The notes beneath the pieces were generated by a model that did no database searches, was not told the DNA's origin, and was given only the letters and a program-made list of their open reading frames with translations. This document shows positions 2,233 to 7,259 of a stretch of DNA of 64,000 bases, in pieces (the first letter of the stretch is position 1; each line of letters starts with the position of its first letter). This DNA comes from Algoriphagus winogradskyi (GTDB taxonomy: Bacteria > Bacteroidota > Bacteroidia > Cytophagales > Cyclobacteriaceae), in assembly GCF_900182815.1 (NCBI RefSeq), contig NZ_FXUA01000006.1:124001-188000 (forward strand). The letters are read 5' to 3'. The position numbers and the translations under genes were made by a program.

Positions 2233-2262
2233 TTGCTTTTGATGATACATTGCCTATCTTAG
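2233..2262 (+). promoter_or_regulatory. Candidate Bacteroidota-type promoter for the leader RNA
   Basis: ATTG at 2232-2235 is separated by 19 bases from TATCTTAG at 2255-2262, close to the Bacteroidota consensus (TTTG, about 19 nt, TAnnTTTG). Transcription would start near 2268, almost at the leader start codon. A second possible -7 box, TAGATTTT at 2218-2225, would give a longer 5' end. Confidence 0.4.
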
Positions 2263-2271
2263 CAGTATGAA

Positions 2272-2358
2272 ATGCAAAGAAGCATTTCAAATGAAAAAAT
2301 TCAAGTGAATCCGACACCAAGAACTTACGTACATCATTCTTACTACCATCTTCAATGA
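2272..2358 (+). CDS. Candidate leader peptide rich in Tyr and His codons
   Basis: An ATG-started ORF of 28 codons ending in TGA at 2356-2358. Its last 11 residues read TYVHHSYYHLQ, with three Tyr and three His codons packed next to the stop. Such clustering directly before an intrinsic terminator is the hallmark of a ribosome-mediated attenuator. The start codon lies in a 7-bp hairpin (GAAATGC 2269-2275 with GCATTTC 2282-2288). No Shine-Dalgarno is seen, which is normal for this phylum. A shorter overlapping ORF at 2267 in another frame is less convincing. Downstream are phhA (makes Tyr) and hisHAFIE (make His), which suits the codon content. Confidence 0.6.
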   Translation: MQRSISNEKIQVNPTPRTYVHHSYYHLQ

Positions 2359-2429
2359 AGGAATAGGATGACTATGGATTTTTGGTAAAAATATATAGAG
2401 GCCTATTCCTAGTGGAATGGGCCTTTTTT
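2359..2429 (+). promoter_or_regulatory. Transcription attenuator (antiterminator plus terminator) of the phhA-his block
   Basis: AGGAATAGG (2359-2367), starting within the leader stop codon region, is perfectly complementary over 9 bp to CCTATTCCT (2402-2410). The latter forms most of the left arm of the terminator stem. That terminator is AGGCCTATTCC (2399-2409) with GGAATGGGCCT (2414-2424), an 11-bp stem with one U-G pair, a TAGT loop and a run of six T (2424-2429). Upstream, TCTTC (2349-2353) and GAAGG (2357-2361) can form a small hairpin masking the antiterminator. The Tyr/His codons cover its left side, so ribosome stalling would free the antiterminator. This is inference from sequence. 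Confidence 0.65.
2399..2429 (+). terminator. Intrinsic terminator of the attenuator
   Basis: An 11-bp stem (2399-2409 with 2414-2424), 4-nt loop and six T residues. It lies 55 bases before the start of the hydrolase gene, so it precedes rather than follows a gene, as expected for an attenuator. Confidence 0.8.
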
Positions 2430-2483
2430 ATTTCACGGTTTTCATTAAAATTTTTATCAGTTGCTAATTCAAATTAGAACAAC

Positions 2484-3137
2484 GTGAAAATTTATGGAAT
2501 AAGCGGTTTGGGAGCTGATAAAAGAGTCTTTGAAAATATATTTCTCAATGCGGATTTTATACCGATTGATTGGATTGATCCCTTTAAGGATGAGCCCATT
2601 GAATCTTATGCTCTTAGACTTTCCTCTGAAATTGATGAAACGGAAGATTTTGGTGTTTTAGGTGTAAGTTTCGGAGGACTCATAGCTGTTGAAATGAGTA
2701 AAAAGTTGAAACCAACTCTAACTATTCTTATTTCATCAGCAGAGACAAGGAAGGATTTAAGATCAATTTTTAGATTCATAGGTAAAATTGGCTTTGTCAG
2801 GTTTCTGCCGAAGTGGGTTTTTGATCCTCCAAGAGGTTTGGCATACTACCTTTTTGGTACGGAAAACAAGACTTTGCTTCACGAGATTTTGGATGATTCT
2901 AATTTGAATTTTACCAAATGGGCTGTTAAGGAGTTGTTGAATTGGAGAAATGAACAAAAAATTGAAAGAGTTTTAAAAATTGAGGGGGCGAATGATAAGT
3001 TAATACTTCCTACAGGTGATAAAAATTCAATATTAATAGAAGGAGGAGAACATTTTATGATAGTTGATAAGGCGGAAGAAATAAGTCAGATAATTAATTC
3101 TGAGTTAGACCAAATAGCTCGAGTAAAGAATTTGTAA
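2484..3137 (+). CDS. Alpha/beta hydrolase
   Basis: A 217-residue protein with GTG as the likely start. It begins with the YGISGLGADKR oxyanion-type segment common in small alpha/beta hydrolases of Bacteroidota. It has the nucleophile elbow GVSFGG (Ser62), a likely acid at Asp171 and a catalytic His at 190 in GGEHF. The substrate is unknown. The gene is visibly more AT-rich than phhA and the his genes that follow, which may reflect later insertion between the attenuator and phhA. It is followed by phhA after 28 bases on the same strand, so co-transcription is likely. Confidence 0.8.
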   Translation: MKIYGISGLGADKRVFENIFLNADFIPIDWIDPFKDEPIESYALRLSSEIDETEDFGVLGVSFGGLIAVEMSKKLKPTLTILISSAETRKDLRSIFRFIGKIGFVRFLPKWVFDPPRGLAYYLFGTENKTLLHEILDDSNLNFTKWAVKELLNWRNEQKIERVLKIEGANDKLILPTGDKNSILIEGGEHFMIVDKAEEISQIINSELDQIARVKNL

Positions 3138-3165: not shown

Positions 3166-3951
3166 ATGAACGCAAACACAAAACAAAAAAACTGGGTCTT
3201 TAGTGATCCCCGACTCCAAAAGCTTAAGCAGGAGTATGAATCTTACACAGAGGAGGACTTCAAAGTATGGAAAATTCTCTTCGAGCGACAGATGCCGAAT
3301 CTACCAAAGGCCGCTTCCAAAGCTTATCTGGAAGGTGTGGAGATGGTGAAGTTTTCTGCTGATAGAATCGCCAATTTCGAAGAACTAAATCAGGTTTTAG
3401 CAAAAAGCACTGGATGGGAAGTGCAGGTGGTTCCGGGCCTCATCGATGATGACCTGTTCTTTGGCTTGCTGAATAACAGAAGGTTTCCATCTTCTACTTG
3501 GCTTCGCACGATGGAGCAGCTTGATTATCTGGAAGAACCTGATATGTTTCATGACGCTTTTGCTCATATGCCCTTGCTGACTAATCAACCTTATGTAGAC
3601 TTTCTAGAAAAGCTCGCAGGGATTGCTTTGAAGCACATTGATAACCCTTGGGCGATACAATTGCTTAGCAGGATCTATTGGTTTACCATAGAATTTGGGT
3701 TGATTCGTGAGGATGGTGAATTAAAAATATACGGCGCGGGGATCCTAAGTTCGGCAGGAGAGACTAAATTCAGCCTTTCAAATGAACCAGCCCATCTGAA
3801 ATATGATGTTCGAAGGATAATGAATCAGGAATACTGGAAAGATCGCTTTCAGGATAAATACTTTGTGATCGAGAATTACGAGCAACTGTATGAGTCGCTG
3901 CCTGAAATAGAGGAGGTTCTTGAGGAGATGCTTTTAGAAAAAAGGAAATAG
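3166..3951 (+). CDS. phhA: Phenylalanine 4-monooxygenase
   Basis: The 261-residue protein matches the catalytic domain of bacterial aromatic amino acid hydroxylases, without the regulatory ACT domain of animal enzymes. The iron ligands are visible: His129 and His134 in the FHDAFAHMPLL motif and Glu176 in WFTIEFGLI. The enzyme uses tetrahydropterin and O2 to convert phenylalanine to tyrosine. It lies between a hydrolase and hisH. Together with the upstream Tyr/His leader this suggests that tyrosine supply is controlled with histidine synthesis, which is an inference. A hairpin element fills the 72-base gap to hisH. Confidence 0.93.
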   Translation: MNANTKQKNWVFSDPRLQKLKQEYESYTEEDFKVWKILFERQMPNLPKAASKAYLEGVEMVKFSADRIANFEELNQVLAKSTGWEVQVVPGLIDDDLFFGLLNNRRFPSSTWLRTMEQLDYLEEPDMFHDAFAHMPLLTNQPYVDFLEKLAGIALKHIDNPWAIQLLSRIYWFTIEFGLIREDGELKIYGAGILSSAGETKFSLSNEPAHLKYDVRRIMNQEYWKDRFQDKYFVIENYEQLYESLPEIEEVLEEMLLEKRK

Positions 3952-4023: not shown

Positions 4024-4620
4024 ATGAAAATAGCAGTCATTAAATATAATTCCGGCAATGTGCAGTCGGTGCTCTATGCTTTGGAGAGGCTAGGTGCAAA
4101 CGCTGAATTGACGGATGATCCAGAAGTAATCCGAGCCGCGGATAAAGTGATTTTCCCTGGTCAAGGCGAAGCTAGTACAGCAATGCGGTACTTGAAGGAG
4201 CGAAAGCTTGATACCTTGATCAAAGACCTGAAACAGCCTTTTCTAGGTGTTTGTCTGGGCTTGCAATTGCTTTGTGAGCATTCTGAAGAAAACGATACCG
4301 AGTGTTTGGGGGTTTTTCCCGTGAAGGTGAAGCGCTTTGTTCCAGAGAATTCTCAGGAATTCAAAGTGCCACATGTGGGCTGGAATGAATTGGAGAATCT
4401 TGCGGATATTCCACTCTTGAAAGACTTGCCTGCAGAGCCATTTGTATATTATGTGCACAGCTTTTATGCTGAGTTGAGCGATTTAACGATAGCTCAGACC
4501 CATTATATTCATGATTTCTCAGCCATGCTACATCGAGATAATTATTATGCTATTCAGGCACATCCTGAGAAAAGCGGTTTAGTAGGAGAGAAATTATTAA
4601 GCAATTTCCTCAGTATTTAA
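4024..4620 (+). CDS. hisH: Imidazole glycerol phosphate synthase, glutaminase subunit
   Basis: A 198-residue class I glutamine amidotransferase. The triad is visible: Cys77 in GVCLGLQLL, and His180 and Glu182 in QAHPEKSG. HisH hydrolyses glutamine and channels ammonia to HisF for step five of histidine synthesis. It is the first of four his genes on this strand (hisH, hisA, hisF, hisIE); the early genes hisG, hisD, hisC and hisB are not in the window. The gap to hisA carries a palindromic insertion. Confidence 0.95.
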   Translation: MKIAVIKYNSGNVQSVLYALERLGANAELTDDPEVIRAADKVIFPGQGEASTAMRYLKERKLDTLIKDLKQPFLGVCLGLQLLCEHSEENDTECLGVFPVKVKRFVPENSQEFKVPHVGWNELENLADIPLLKDLPAEPFVYYVHSFYAELSDLTIAQTHYIHDFSAMLHRDNYYAIQAHPEKSGLVGEKLLSNFLSI

Positions 4621-4634
4621 AGCCAATTATTTTC

Positions 4635-4765
4635 GATTTACGAATTACGAGATTGGCTTGAACCTCAATCAACATTCCCAATTCTTAACATCTCGAAGGG
4701 CTAAGTATGGGTAGGATGTGGAAAACTACAATTGAGCTCGTAAATCCCATATCGTAAATCGTAAT
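4635..4765. repeat. MITE-like palindromic element, family C, copy 1 (hisH-hisA gap)
   Basis: About 130 bp with terminal inverted repeats of about 35 bp built from TTTACGAATTACGA words: the left end GATTTACGAATTACGAGATT is mirrored by a right end containing CTCGTAAAT and CGTAAATCGTAAT. The inner part (ACCTCAATC-ACATT, CGAAGGG-TAA) is shared with a second copy at 5529-5668 in the same orientation. No coding capacity. The ends suggest a small non-autonomous mobile element or a hairpin family. Confidence 0.7.
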
Positions 4766-4801
4766 TTTCAAATCTTTCACTATTAAAACATTCCAATCCT
4801 A

Positions 4802-5518
4802 ATGTATATTATTCCAGCAATCGACCTCATCGGAGGCAAGTGCGTCCGACTTAGTCAGGGCGATTACAGCAGCAAAAAAGAATACCATGACGATCCGTTG
4901 GAAATGGCCAAGCGCTTTGAAGGCGCCGGTATTCAACGATTACATCTGGTGGATTTGGATGGAGCCAAGGCTAAAAAGATTGTGAATGCGGATGTTTTGC
5001 AGAGAATCAGCTCAGGAACAAGCCTACAAGTTGATTTTGGAGGAGGGATTCAAGCGGATGAGGAAATCGAAAAAGCATTTAGCCTCGGAGCCAAGCAGGT
5101 GACAGGAGGAAGCATTGCAGTGAAGAATGCAGCGCTCTTTGGAAGCTGGATCACAAACTATGGTTCTGAGAAAATAATACTGGGTGCTGATGCAAAAAAT
5201 AGAAAAATCGCTGTTGGAGGTTGGGAAGAAACTACTTCCGTGGATTTGATTCCTTTTATCAAAGACTATGTCGCTAAAGGAATTAGCTATGTGATCTGTA
5301 CTGATGTGGCAAAAGATGGTTTGCTTCAAGGGCCATCTACGGATTTATACAAAGAGATTTTAGAAGAAATCCCTGGCGTAAAATTGATCGCAAGTGGCGG
5401 TGTTTCCTCAGTTAAAGATCTGGAAGAACTGGAAAAAATCGGTGTCTATGGGACGATAGTTGGAAAGGCGTATTATGAGGGAAGAGTGACGTTGGAGGAA
5501 TTGGCGGCGTTTGTTTGA
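4802..5518 (+). CDS. hisA: Phosphoribosylformimino-5-aminoimidazole carboxamide ribotide isomerase
   Basis: A 238-residue (beta/alpha)8 barrel beginning MYIIPAIDLIGGKCVRL. Asp8 is the family's catalytic acid/base, and a second Asp lies in the ILGADAKN segment. Phosphate-binding loops VDFGGGI and IASGGV are visible. HisA performs the Amadori rearrangement (ProFAR to PRFAR), the step before HisHF. It is normal in length and lies in a + strand series with hisH and hisF, separated from each by similar palindromic elements. Confidence 0.95.
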   Translation: MYIIPAIDLIGGKCVRLSQGDYSSKKEYHDDPLEMAKRFEGAGIQRLHLVDLDGAKAKKIVNADVLQRISSGTSLQVDFGGGIQADEEIEKAFSLGAKQVTGGSIAVKNAALFGSWITNYGSEKIILGADAKNRKIAVGGWEETTSVDLIPFIKDYVAKGISYVICTDVAKDGLLQGPSTDLYKEILEEIPGVKLIASGGVSSVKDLEELEKIGVYGTIVGKAYYEGRVTLEELAAFV

Positions 5519-5528
5519 TTTACTAGTG

Positions 5529-5668
5529 TATTTACGAATTACGATTTTGGATTTACGAGATTGAATTGAACCTCAATCGACATTTCTAATTCTGACTATC
5601 CTGAAGGGTTAAATATTGGGATAATGCTTAACACTAAAATTGATCTCGTAAATCGTACTTCGTAAATC
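5529..5668. repeat. MITE-like palindromic element, family C, copy 2 (hisA-hisF gap)
   Basis: Same architecture and orientation as the element at 4635-4765: left end ATTTACGAATTACGA, a repeated ATTTACGAGATTGAATT segment, and right end CTCGTAAATCGTA-CTTCGTAAATC. The inner words ACCTCAATCGACATT and CTGAAGGGTTAA match copy 1. The two copies differ at many positions, so they are not a recent duplication. Confidence 0.7.
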
Positions 5669-5683
5669 AAAAATTTTAAGTTC

Positions 5684-5731: not shown

Positions 5732-6487
5732 ATGTTAACAAAGAGAATAATTCCCTGCCTAGATATCAAAGAAGGCCGAACGGTTAAAGGAGTGAACTTT
5801 GTGGAGCTTCGTGATGCGGGTGACCCGGTGGAGTTGGCGAAGATCTACTCTGACGAAGGGGCTGACGAATTAGTGTTTTTGGATATCACTGCAACGGTGG
5901 ATAAGCGTAAAACCTTAGCGGAATTGGTGACAAAAGTGGCCAAAGCAATCAATATTCCTTTTACAGTAGGCGGAGGGATTTCTACTGTGGAGGATGTAAA
6001 AGTATTGCTTAATGCTGGAGCAGATAAGATTTCCATCAATTCTTCGGCAGTGAAAAACCCACAGATCATCAATGAAATGGCAGCTGAATTCGGTTCTCAA
6101 TGCATTGTGGTTGCTATCGATACTAGAAATGTGGATGGAATTGACTTTGTACATACACATGGGGGGAGAAAGGCAACTTTGCTGAAAACTCAGGAGTGGG
6201 CTCAGGAAGTGTGTGATCGTGGAGCTGGAGAGATTCTGCTGACTTCCATGGATCATGACGGGACAAAGTCAGGATTTTCCAATGAGCTTTTGGCGGAAAT
6301 TTCATCTGCGCTCTCCATTCCTGTGATTGCTTCAGGCGGTGCCGGTACGATGGGACATTTCAAAGATGTGTTTACCTTTGGCAAAGCAGATGCAGCTTTG
6401 GCGGCAAGCATTTTTCACTTTAAGGAAATTGGGATTCCTGAGTTGAAGAGGTATCTCTCCGATTCTGAAATCAGTATAAGGAAGTAA
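5732..6487 (+). CDS. hisF: Imidazole glycerol phosphate synthase, cyclase subunit
   Basis: A 251-residue (beta/alpha)8 barrel beginning [16 protein letters not shown]. The catalytic aspartates Asp11 and Asp130 (VVAID130) are present, as are the phosphate-binding VGGGI and ASGGAG loops. HisF uses ammonia from HisH to convert PRFAR to imidazole glycerol phosphate and AICAR. Length is standard. It follows hisA after a 213-base gap filled by two palindromic repeats. Confidence 0.96.
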
Positions 6488-6659: not shown

Positions 6660-7259
6660 ATGAACATAGATTTTAAAAAAATGGATGGTTTGGTGCCGGC
6701 TATAGTGCAAGACGCGATATCTGGCAAAGTGCTAATGCAGGGCTACATGAATGAAGAGGCTTTAGCAAAAACCAAGGAAACCAATCAGGTTACATTTTTC
6801 AGCCGTAGCAAAAACCGTCTTTGGACTAAAGGGGAAACTTCCGGTAATTTTATGGAGTTGGTAAGCATTTCAGTTGATTGTGATGGAGATTCAATTTTAG
6901 TAAAAGCCAATCCAATAGGCCCTGTGTGTCATACAGGAGCGGATACCTGTTTTGATGAGGTGAATTCATCCAAAACTGGATTTATAGATCAATTGAGAGC
7001 GATTATCAAAGACCGCAAAAACAACCCAACTGATAAGTCTTATACTGCTTCTCTTTTCGCCAAAGGCATCAACAAAGTTGCGCAAAAGGTAGGTGAGGAA
7101 GCTGTGGAGATTGTGATCGAAGCTAAGGATGACAATAAGGAGCTATTTATGGGAGAGGCGGCGGATTTGCTTTATCACTACCTAGTTTTGCTGGAAGCGA
7201 AGGGGTATGAGTTAGATGAGGTAATGGACGTACTGATTGATCGGCATAGGAAGAAATAG
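6660..7259 (+). CDS. hisIE: Bifunctional phosphoribosyl-AMP cyclohydrolase / phosphoribosyl-ATP pyrophosphatase
   Basis: The ATG at 6660 is preferred to the TTG at 6636 because homologous proteins start near NIDFKKMDGLVPA. The N-terminal half (about 1-105) is the HisI cyclohydrolase with VTFFSRSKNRLWTKGETSG and the zinc site around DCDGDS and CHTGADTCF. The C-terminal half (about 115-199) is the HisE pyrophosphatase with the EEAVEIVIEAK helix and EAADLLYHYLVLL. The fusion catalyses steps two and three of histidine synthesis. It ends three bases before the converging S41 protease gene. Confidence 0.95.
   Translation: MNIDFKKMDGLVPAIVQDAISGKVLMQGYMNEEALAKTKETNQVTFFSRSKNRLWTKGETSGNFMELVSISVDCDGDSILVKANPIGPVCHTGADTCFDEVNSSKTGFIDQLRAIIKDRKNNPTDKSYTASLFAKGINKVAQKVGEEAVEIVIEAKDDNKELFMGEAADLLYHYLVLLEAKGYELDEVMDVLIDRHRKK

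Follow-up and report, generated by a model that had tools for sequence, protein, structure and literature searches.

A conserved, putative leader-peptide attenuator with mixed His and Tyr codons upstream of phhA and hisHAFIE in Algoriphagus

The window analyzed here, a 64-kb stretch of DNA from Algoriphagus winogradskyi (genome size, 4.97 Mb), carries on its plus strand a set of biosynthetic genes in which phhA, whose product makes Tyr, is followed by hisH, hisA, hisF, and hisIE. The original prediction had placed an attenuator ahead of these genes. All five gene assignments passed NCBIfam cut-offs (phhA just missed that of TIGR01267). The element does not directly precede phhA in this species, as another open reading frame (ORF) lies in between. 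The features of the locus are as follows.

2233-2262, +: candidate promoter, read from sequence (TTG at 2233-2235, 19 nt, TATCTTAG at 2255-2262)
2267-2308, +: 13-codon mini-ORF, MKCKEAFQMKKFK, seen by eye; its stop overlaps the leader start as GTGA
2305-2358, +: leader peptide gene, GTG start, 17 codons, VNPTPRTYVHHSYYHLQ, from an alignment of 39 genomes
2316-2340, +: segment 1 (protector), pairing with parts of 2365-2386 in minimum free energy (MFE) folds
2326-2349, +: candidate control codons Tyr-Val-His-His-Ser-Tyr-Tyr-His, from codon conservation in 39 genomes
2359-2367, +: segment 2, AGGAATAGG, the antiterminator 5' arm, immediately 3' of the stop codon
2372-2398, +: antiterminator inner helix, CTATGGATTTTTGG with TAAAAATATATAG, in folds of a transcript ending at 2412 and of 2358-2412 alone
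2397-2429, +: intrinsic terminator (segments 3:4) and T-run, -21.3 kcal/mol
2402-2410, +: segment 3, CCTATTCCT, common to antiterminator and terminator
2484-3137, +: ORF of 217 amino acids, alpha/beta-hydrolase-like by eye only
3166-3951, +: phhA, phenylalanine 4-monooxygenase (NF008877, E 1.2e-80, over cut-off)
4024-4620, +: hisH (TIGR01855, over cut-off)
4802-5518, +: hisA (TIGR00007, over cut-off)
5732-6487, +: hisF (TIGR00735, over cut-off)
6660-7259, +: hisIE (NF002747, over cut-off)

Neither NCBIfam nor Pfam gave a match (E 0.001) to the ORF at 2484-3137. By its position, this ORF would be the first gene controlled by the attenuator. It separates the leader from phhA by 862 nt, whereas the other 38 aligned genomes have 169-344 nt between the two and no room for this ORF. 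Upstream of the attenuator, a DAHP synthase gene was present within 13 of the 24 leader-bearing loci among the first 30 that we read (confirmed for L004 with NF006421 and PF00793), and trpA lies 5' of that gene in some of the loci reaching that far. A terminator-like site was also seen at 2163-2188, near the attenuator. On the other side, a 141-nt direct repeat (4631-4771 and 5539-5679; 76% identical) fills much of the hisH-hisA and hisA-hisF gaps.

A 28-codon leader ORF at 2272-2358 had been proposed. That frame exists and does end in TYVHHSYYHLQ, with three Tyr and three His codons, but the alignment places the start at the GTG at 2305, which leaves a leader of 17 codons. A start at ATG 2272 was rejected on the grounds that the upstream codons are unconserved and that locus L002 has an in-frame stop shortly 5' of its GTG (by eye). 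Across the 39 genomes, the start codon is ATG in 29 and GTG in 10, and the sequence upstream of it is not conserved. The mini-ORF may serve translational coupling into the leader, a role suggested by the stop/start overlap, which recurs in L002 with a 13-codon ORF that also has a GTG start (by eye). The sequence at 2233-2262 is probably the promoter of the attenuator and resembles the Bacteroidota -33/-7 consensus. A TAnnTT box ending 2-9 nt 5' of the leader start was found in 31 of 39 genomes (mean for shuffled upstream regions, 4.0), and the box combined with a TTG 17-23 nt upstream was found in 29 of 39 (shuffled mean, 0.6). The box mostly ends 4 nt 5' of the start codon; the window and L002 fall outside the 31 genomes, with the box end 42 nt 5' of the leader start. 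Given this consensus and this position of the box, transcription would begin at or near the leader AUG, so that the leader mRNA is perhaps leaderless in most of the genus.

Directly downstream of the leader, two of the predicted structural elements hold exactly as proposed: AGGAATAGG is the perfect complement of CCTATTCCT, and the latter forms part of the left arm of a terminator hairpin (2397-2426) with 13 pairs and a 4-nt loop, followed by a T-run. The proposed his/trp-type geometry was likewise borne out. The attenuator region folds much better than its own shuffles (z, -4.83; 0/200 shuffles equally good), and a scan of both strands of the 64-kb window for a short ORF, a 9-mer ≤25 nt from its stop, and a perfect complement of this 9-mer acting as terminator left arm returned this one site and none in 20 dinucleotide shuffles of the window, with a rule that was composed after the site was known. 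No match to any Rfam covariance model, His_leader and T-box included, reached the gathering score in the whole window. In the predicted folds, the 1:2, 2:3, and 3:4 helices are mutually exclusive, with segment 2 beside the stop codon. The TTTTTGG of the antiterminator inner helix also pairs with segment 1, and 2358-2412 alone folds at -17.5 kcal/mol.

Equilibrium folding of the full transcript was tried and discarded as a switch model: the terminator formed every time, with a probability of 0.999 regardless of the position of the ribosome. We therefore folded partial transcripts, ending at 2412 (before segment 4 has been made), with a 29-nt ribosome footprint blocked. Here, a ribosome stalled at His 2332 or Tyr 2341 gave an antiterminator probability of 0.999; the value was 0.62 for a stall at the last His (2347) and 0.0 for a ribosome on the stop codon. 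Since the full-length equilibrium is always the terminator, and since just 6 of 39 genomes have an antiterminator more stable than the terminator, antitermination would have to be kinetic, decided during transcription. The same holds for the protective hairpin. An untranslated transcript forms the 1:2 hairpin when it ends at 2398 but prefers the antiterminator (0.94) when it ends at 2412, so that the hairpin could protect only kinetically; this preference is a weak point of the modeled equilibrium picture.

We propose the following mechanism. With both charged tRNAs plentiful, the ribosome would reach the stop codon at 2356-2358 and cover AGGAATAGG, and the terminator at 2397-2426 would form. 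With His or Tyr in short supply, it would stall within YVHHSYYH and cover segment 1, leaving segment 2 free; the latter could then capture CCTATTCCT before the right arm of the terminator is made, and transcription would proceed into the extra ORF, phhA, and hisHAFIE. Without translation, the 1:2 hairpin would be expected to hold segment 2, allowing termination.

Conservation was assessed in two sets of Algoriphagus genomes. A search of 58 genomes located phhA in 45, and among 30 loci read, the leader was recognized in 24 by the loose motif PxPR. In addition, a DNA pattern encoding PTPRTxxHH was present once in each of the 24 same-genus genomes in an order-wide sample of 390; 15 of these were new, yielding an alignment of 39 distinct genomes, the window's genome included. 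Four matches to the same pattern outside the genus, in two genomes (G062 and G403), were judged chance from the matched letters. The leader was also present in the named Algoriphagus records L304 (Algoriphagus aquimarinus), L306, L307, L315, and L323, with the leader of G028 being the same as that of L304. Among the 33 loci of the genus in the larger survey described below, six were without a leader. In one of these (L011), the locus runs into the end of its contig. The other five (L025, L026, L028, L029, and L030), from incomplete genomes of 2.2-2.8 Mb, keep trpA-phhA-hisH but have no leader and, by eye, no terminator, and seem to have lost the leader.

The leader is conserved as a coding sequence, with purifying selection on the peptide. 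Within codons 2-12, 10 of 11 third positions are variable, against 4 of 22 first and second positions (p 1e-4, unadjusted for relatedness), and the PxPR set of 24 genomes gives 9 of 11 against 4 of 22 (p 7e-4, likewise unadjusted). The conserved YxHH-type codons that had been named as the decisive check are present. His-His occupies codons 10-11 in 39 of 39 genomes, a pair that the search itself had built in, together with PTPRT, for 15 of them, and in 24 of 24 of those found with PxPR only; codon 13 or 14 encodes Tyr, which no search pattern demanded, in every one of the 39 and in 24 of 24 of the PxPR set. Codons 13 and 14 are both Tyr or His in 34 of 39 genomes.

The second part of that check, compensatory change in the two arms, was also borne out. 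The 8-nt core of the antiterminator is paired in all 39 genomes (312/312 cells), under a search pattern for arm 2 that allowed only purines at the three variable sites and that no sequence failed (0/39). Its variation is mostly A-T to G-U, with one A-T to G-C double change, in L048, where a three-way compensatory change (GGAGTAGG / CCTACTCC / GGGGTAGG) is matched in the terminator right arm. Each core pair of the terminator is kept in 28 to 39 of the 39 genomes. Segment 1 folds at -16.25 kcal/mol with its native partners and at -15.28 kcal/mol with swapped ones (0/10000 swaps as low), and the third base of Thr7 tracks its partner, GGTTT accompanying ACC in 21 of 21 genomes and non-ACC codons in 1 of 18; neither comparison across the 39 genomes is corrected for relatedness.

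A chance arrangement, or the ordinary and nonregulatory terminator of an upstream gene, has next to no probability and is refuted on sequence grounds: while the site at 2163-2188 shows that such hairpins occur nearby, the full arrangement is found in none of the 20 window shuffles, is conserved in 39 genomes with compensatory change, and has counterparts in other genera, with leader and terminator at the same place. With an ORF that varies as a translated sequence does, His and Tyr codons conserved near its 3' end, exclusive helices beside its stop, and an intrinsic terminator 5' of the first structural gene, the structural features expected of an attenuator appear in the sequence and its predicted folds, and, judged by its sequence, the element is almost certainly a conserved leader-peptide attenuator.

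What the leader senses was addressed outside the genus. phhA was searched in 30 genomes of the family (24 matched), 395 of the phylum (128), a further sample of 216 of the family (141), and 213 of the order (129), samples that overlap; 160 further regions were retrieved, and 240 loci were examined. With 27 PTPRT-type loci set apart, 213 remained, 77 with hisH or hisA downstream of phhA (linked) and 136 without, where "unlinked" means that his genes were unseen in a downstream flank of mostly about 1.3-1.5 kb. A first leader-calling script, which required perfect terminator stems, missed many leaders; its replacement tolerates one mismatch or bulge and calls a leader when Tyr and His together make up ≥4 of 10 residues and a terminator follows the stop. 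This yielded 38 leaders, 23 linked and 15 unlinked. Since both scripts select ORFs for the highest content of Tyr, His, Phe, and Trp, aromatic/His leaders are found by design, and the test concerns only His content versus linkage. Under this strict rule, 54 of the 77 linked and 121 of the 136 unlinked loci were without a leader, so leaders are often absent or missed.

The unlinked leaders are near-pure Tyr runs (e.g., NSKYYYYYYYRI), whereas leaders of loci in which hisH follows phhA have His mixed in (e.g., KYHSYYYHF). A cut-off of at least two His in the best 10 residues, picked after the data had been seen, was reached by 21 of 23 linked leaders and 1 of 15 unlinked ones; the mean number of His was 2.39 versus 0.47, and the rank test, which is free of any threshold, gave p 2.6e-6. 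At least one His was found in 22 of 23 versus 6 of 15 (p 2.5e-4) and, counted by genus, in 12 of 13 versus 5 of 10 (p 0.05). Phylogenetic regression over the phhA tree, with 43 rows that include 5 from the window's genus, gave +1.97 ± 0.46 His (p 1.1e-4) at lambda 1, i.e., full Brownian motion, and smaller p values at lower lambda, on a tree with long branches and 16 weak forks. An independent-pairs test had two supported pairs, which is too few, and was not significant for either measure (two or more His, 1.7 in the same direction and 0.0 in the opposite; one or more, 0.6 and 0.0). Two genera that contain both linkage states agree with the rule: g40 (linked L143, HYYYYH, and L158, HYYYYYH; unlinked L075 and L150, TYYYYYQ) and g5 (linked L218, TYHYAYYH; unlinked L251, KYYYYL). 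Exceptions in the strict set are L202 (linked, no His), L253 (linked, one His), and L244 (unlinked, two His), with L137 (linked, one His) as an exception outside it. L153 and L156, both in the linked set, share an identical leader.

Excluded from the 38, because no terminator was found under the rule, were L059, L112, L124, L154, and L158 (linked, ≥2 His), L137, and L186 and L227 (unlinked, no His in the Tyr stretch), as were other terminator-less ORFs judged spurious by eye; L221 (unlinked, no His in the Tyr stretch) was called by the first script only. A scan of at least 80 phhA loci from named records added at least 12 unlinked leaders among the records listed, and none of the 12 had two or more His (0 to 1 each). 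They include three Hymenobacter leaders, one from a Chitinophagales MAG, and one from a Sphingomonas (L361), which lies outside Bacteroidota. The linked leaders among the records listed were of the PTPRT type or repeats of known ones. Left out of the 12 were L301 and L309, with leaders identical to those of L075 and L081, and three loci with no terminator: L325 (one His), L354 (MVHHTDYYV, two His), and L372 (four His, no Tyr). The pure-Tyr leaders of L079 and L081 precede phhA, an aminotransferase gene (PF00155), and a prephenate dehydrogenase gene (L181 is alike by eye), and that of L099 precedes phhA and a pterin-4a-carbinolamine dehydratase gene, as expected for what would be a Tyr sensor. 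At a glance, the genes behind other unlinked phhA copies are varied.

The correlation of leader His codons with his linkage across genera favors the proposal, made from the window's sequence, that both amino acids are read. We consider it likely that the element is a ribosome-mediated transcription attenuator in which a single leader reads charged tRNA-His and charged tRNA-Tyr; we infer the stalling, the antitermination, and the response to both amino acids from sequence and folds. The linkage pattern further suggests that His codons were gained by, or lost from, a Tyr sensor as his genes joined or left the operon.

An unlikely alternative, though the best of those considered, is that the switch in this genus senses His only, with an otherwise unchanged mechanism and with Tyr codons that are relics of an ancestral Tyr leader. 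Among the candidate control codons, no pair other than His-His is invariant; codon 8 encodes Tyr in 22 genomes and Phe in 17, only one to three Tyr codons are left in the leaders of the genus, and L126, from another genus of the family, has HHHH with one Tyr farther upstream. What speaks for the reading of both amino acids instead is that a Tyr is kept at codon 13 or 14 in every one of the 39 genomes even though its position moves, that each of the 23 his-linked leaders from other genera retains one or more Tyr, and that, in the folds, segment 2 is released by a stall at Tyr 2341 just as it is by one at His.

Somewhat less likely still is arrest by the nascent peptide. In TnaC, the peptide itself brings about a ligand-responsive stall, and an NPTPRT-VHHS peptide could similarly halt the ribosome in answer to a ligand rather than for want of a charged tRNA. 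NPTPRT is near-invariant (a single Ser at codon 2) and HHS is invariant as amino acids within the genus while third bases vary, which also holds in the looser PxPR set; moreover, none of the predicted helices includes Asn2-Pro3, in the leader start (2305-2325 in the window), residues that a sensor of codons alone would not need. CCA-AGA-AC, on the other hand, is accounted for by segment 1 pairing, and by eye no peptide is evident that is common to leaders outside the genus beyond their Tyr/His runs; neither NPTPRT nor HHS was seen in those leaders.

Sensing of Tyr only, with His codons that are neutral or kept for the pairing of CATCAT with GGATGA in the 1:2 hairpin, is very improbable. phhA leaders without his genes behind them are mostly near-pure Tyr, and part of CATCATTCT does lie within the 1:2 stem of the window's MFE fold, but both His codons vary between CAT and CAC among the 39 genomes, and His codons track his linkage across genera whose leaders share little else.

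Returning to the attenuator that reads both amino acids, we speculate, at somewhat less than even chances, that the phhA leaders of Bacteroidota were rewritten at operon rearrangements, with His codons where hisHAFIE lies behind phhA and none where it does not; that the result is an AND-type repressor of two pathways, off only when both amino acids suffice; and that the conserved Algoriphagus peptide is, in addition, perhaps a partial arrest peptide on a leaderless mRNA. If true, one attenuator would integrate two unrelated amino-acid signals, and the leader family would amount to a natural experiment in which the input codons of a sensor follow the gene content of its operon.

The element is similar to the hisL attenuator of enterobacteria (His_leader in Rfam) in its short leader ORF, its control codons just before the stop, its 1:2, 2:3, and 3:4 helices, and its intrinsic terminator with a biosynthetic operon downstream. 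It differs in having mixed His/Tyr codons instead of a His run, a mixed operon, no Rfam match at gathering score, a Bacteroidota-type candidate promoter, and, in most of the genus, perhaps a leaderless mRNA. Attenuators with control codons for more than one amino acid in a single leader occur in the enterobacterial thr (Thr and Ile) and ilv (Ile, Val, and Leu) operons; there, however, a single branched pathway connects the amino acids, whereas the His and Tyr pathways are unrelated and are joined here only by operon structure. Outside Proteobacteria, leader-peptide attenuation is likewise seen in Firmicutes, another phylum, where the matched passages of PMC9413887 and PMC2965389 describe leader peptides for His only, before his and hisS/hisZ genes. 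Matched passages of other papers describe classical leaders in Shewanella (PMC2659441), the absence, in Actinobacteria, of a conserved RNA element ahead of His or Tyr operons (PMC1262725), and leader genes of Bacteroidetes only with regard to their distance from the next gene (PMC4833913). The passages of the open-licence matches listed, a scope outside which most subscription papers fall, report no Tyr/His leader, no phhA Tyr attenuator, and no hisG His attenuator of Bacteroidota, and a 2010 review (Lopatovskaya et al., cited in PMC4833913) may contain an earlier description.

In the window's genome, hisG lies on a separate contig (L280, G000:C4) and has a leader of its own, MENSNRNIDFLATAHQGNLMHHFHHSS, ending in MHHFHHSS and a stop. 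Both leaders are His-rich and precede his genes, but that of hisG has His and Phe and no Tyr (by eye). By eye, the hairpin downstream of the hisG leader has no clear T-run, so the output mechanism may differ. Eight of 30 hisG loci have a leader ending in HHFHHSS or HHLHHSS. In four phhA-unlinked genomes (G283, G304, G805, and G850), hisG and hisH share an operon and a strand at a distance of about 4.2 kb, with a HisB-like C terminus just 5' of hisH (by eye), and all four hisG leaders (L273, L282, L294, and L272, respectively) have a His run and no Tyr run. In the window's genome, hisG and hisHAFIE each lie behind a His-containing leader, with Tyr codons only at the part joined to phhA. If true, the proposed reading of both amino acids would also suggest leader-peptide attenuators for Tyr at phhA and for His at hisG in Bacteroidota.

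Finally, the region upstream of phhA in Sphingomonas parva (L361) holds a Tyr-rich ORF, TVYSYYYAPGTG, and after it a hairpin resembling a terminator, and Tyr leaders of phhA may occur in Alphaproteobacteria as well.
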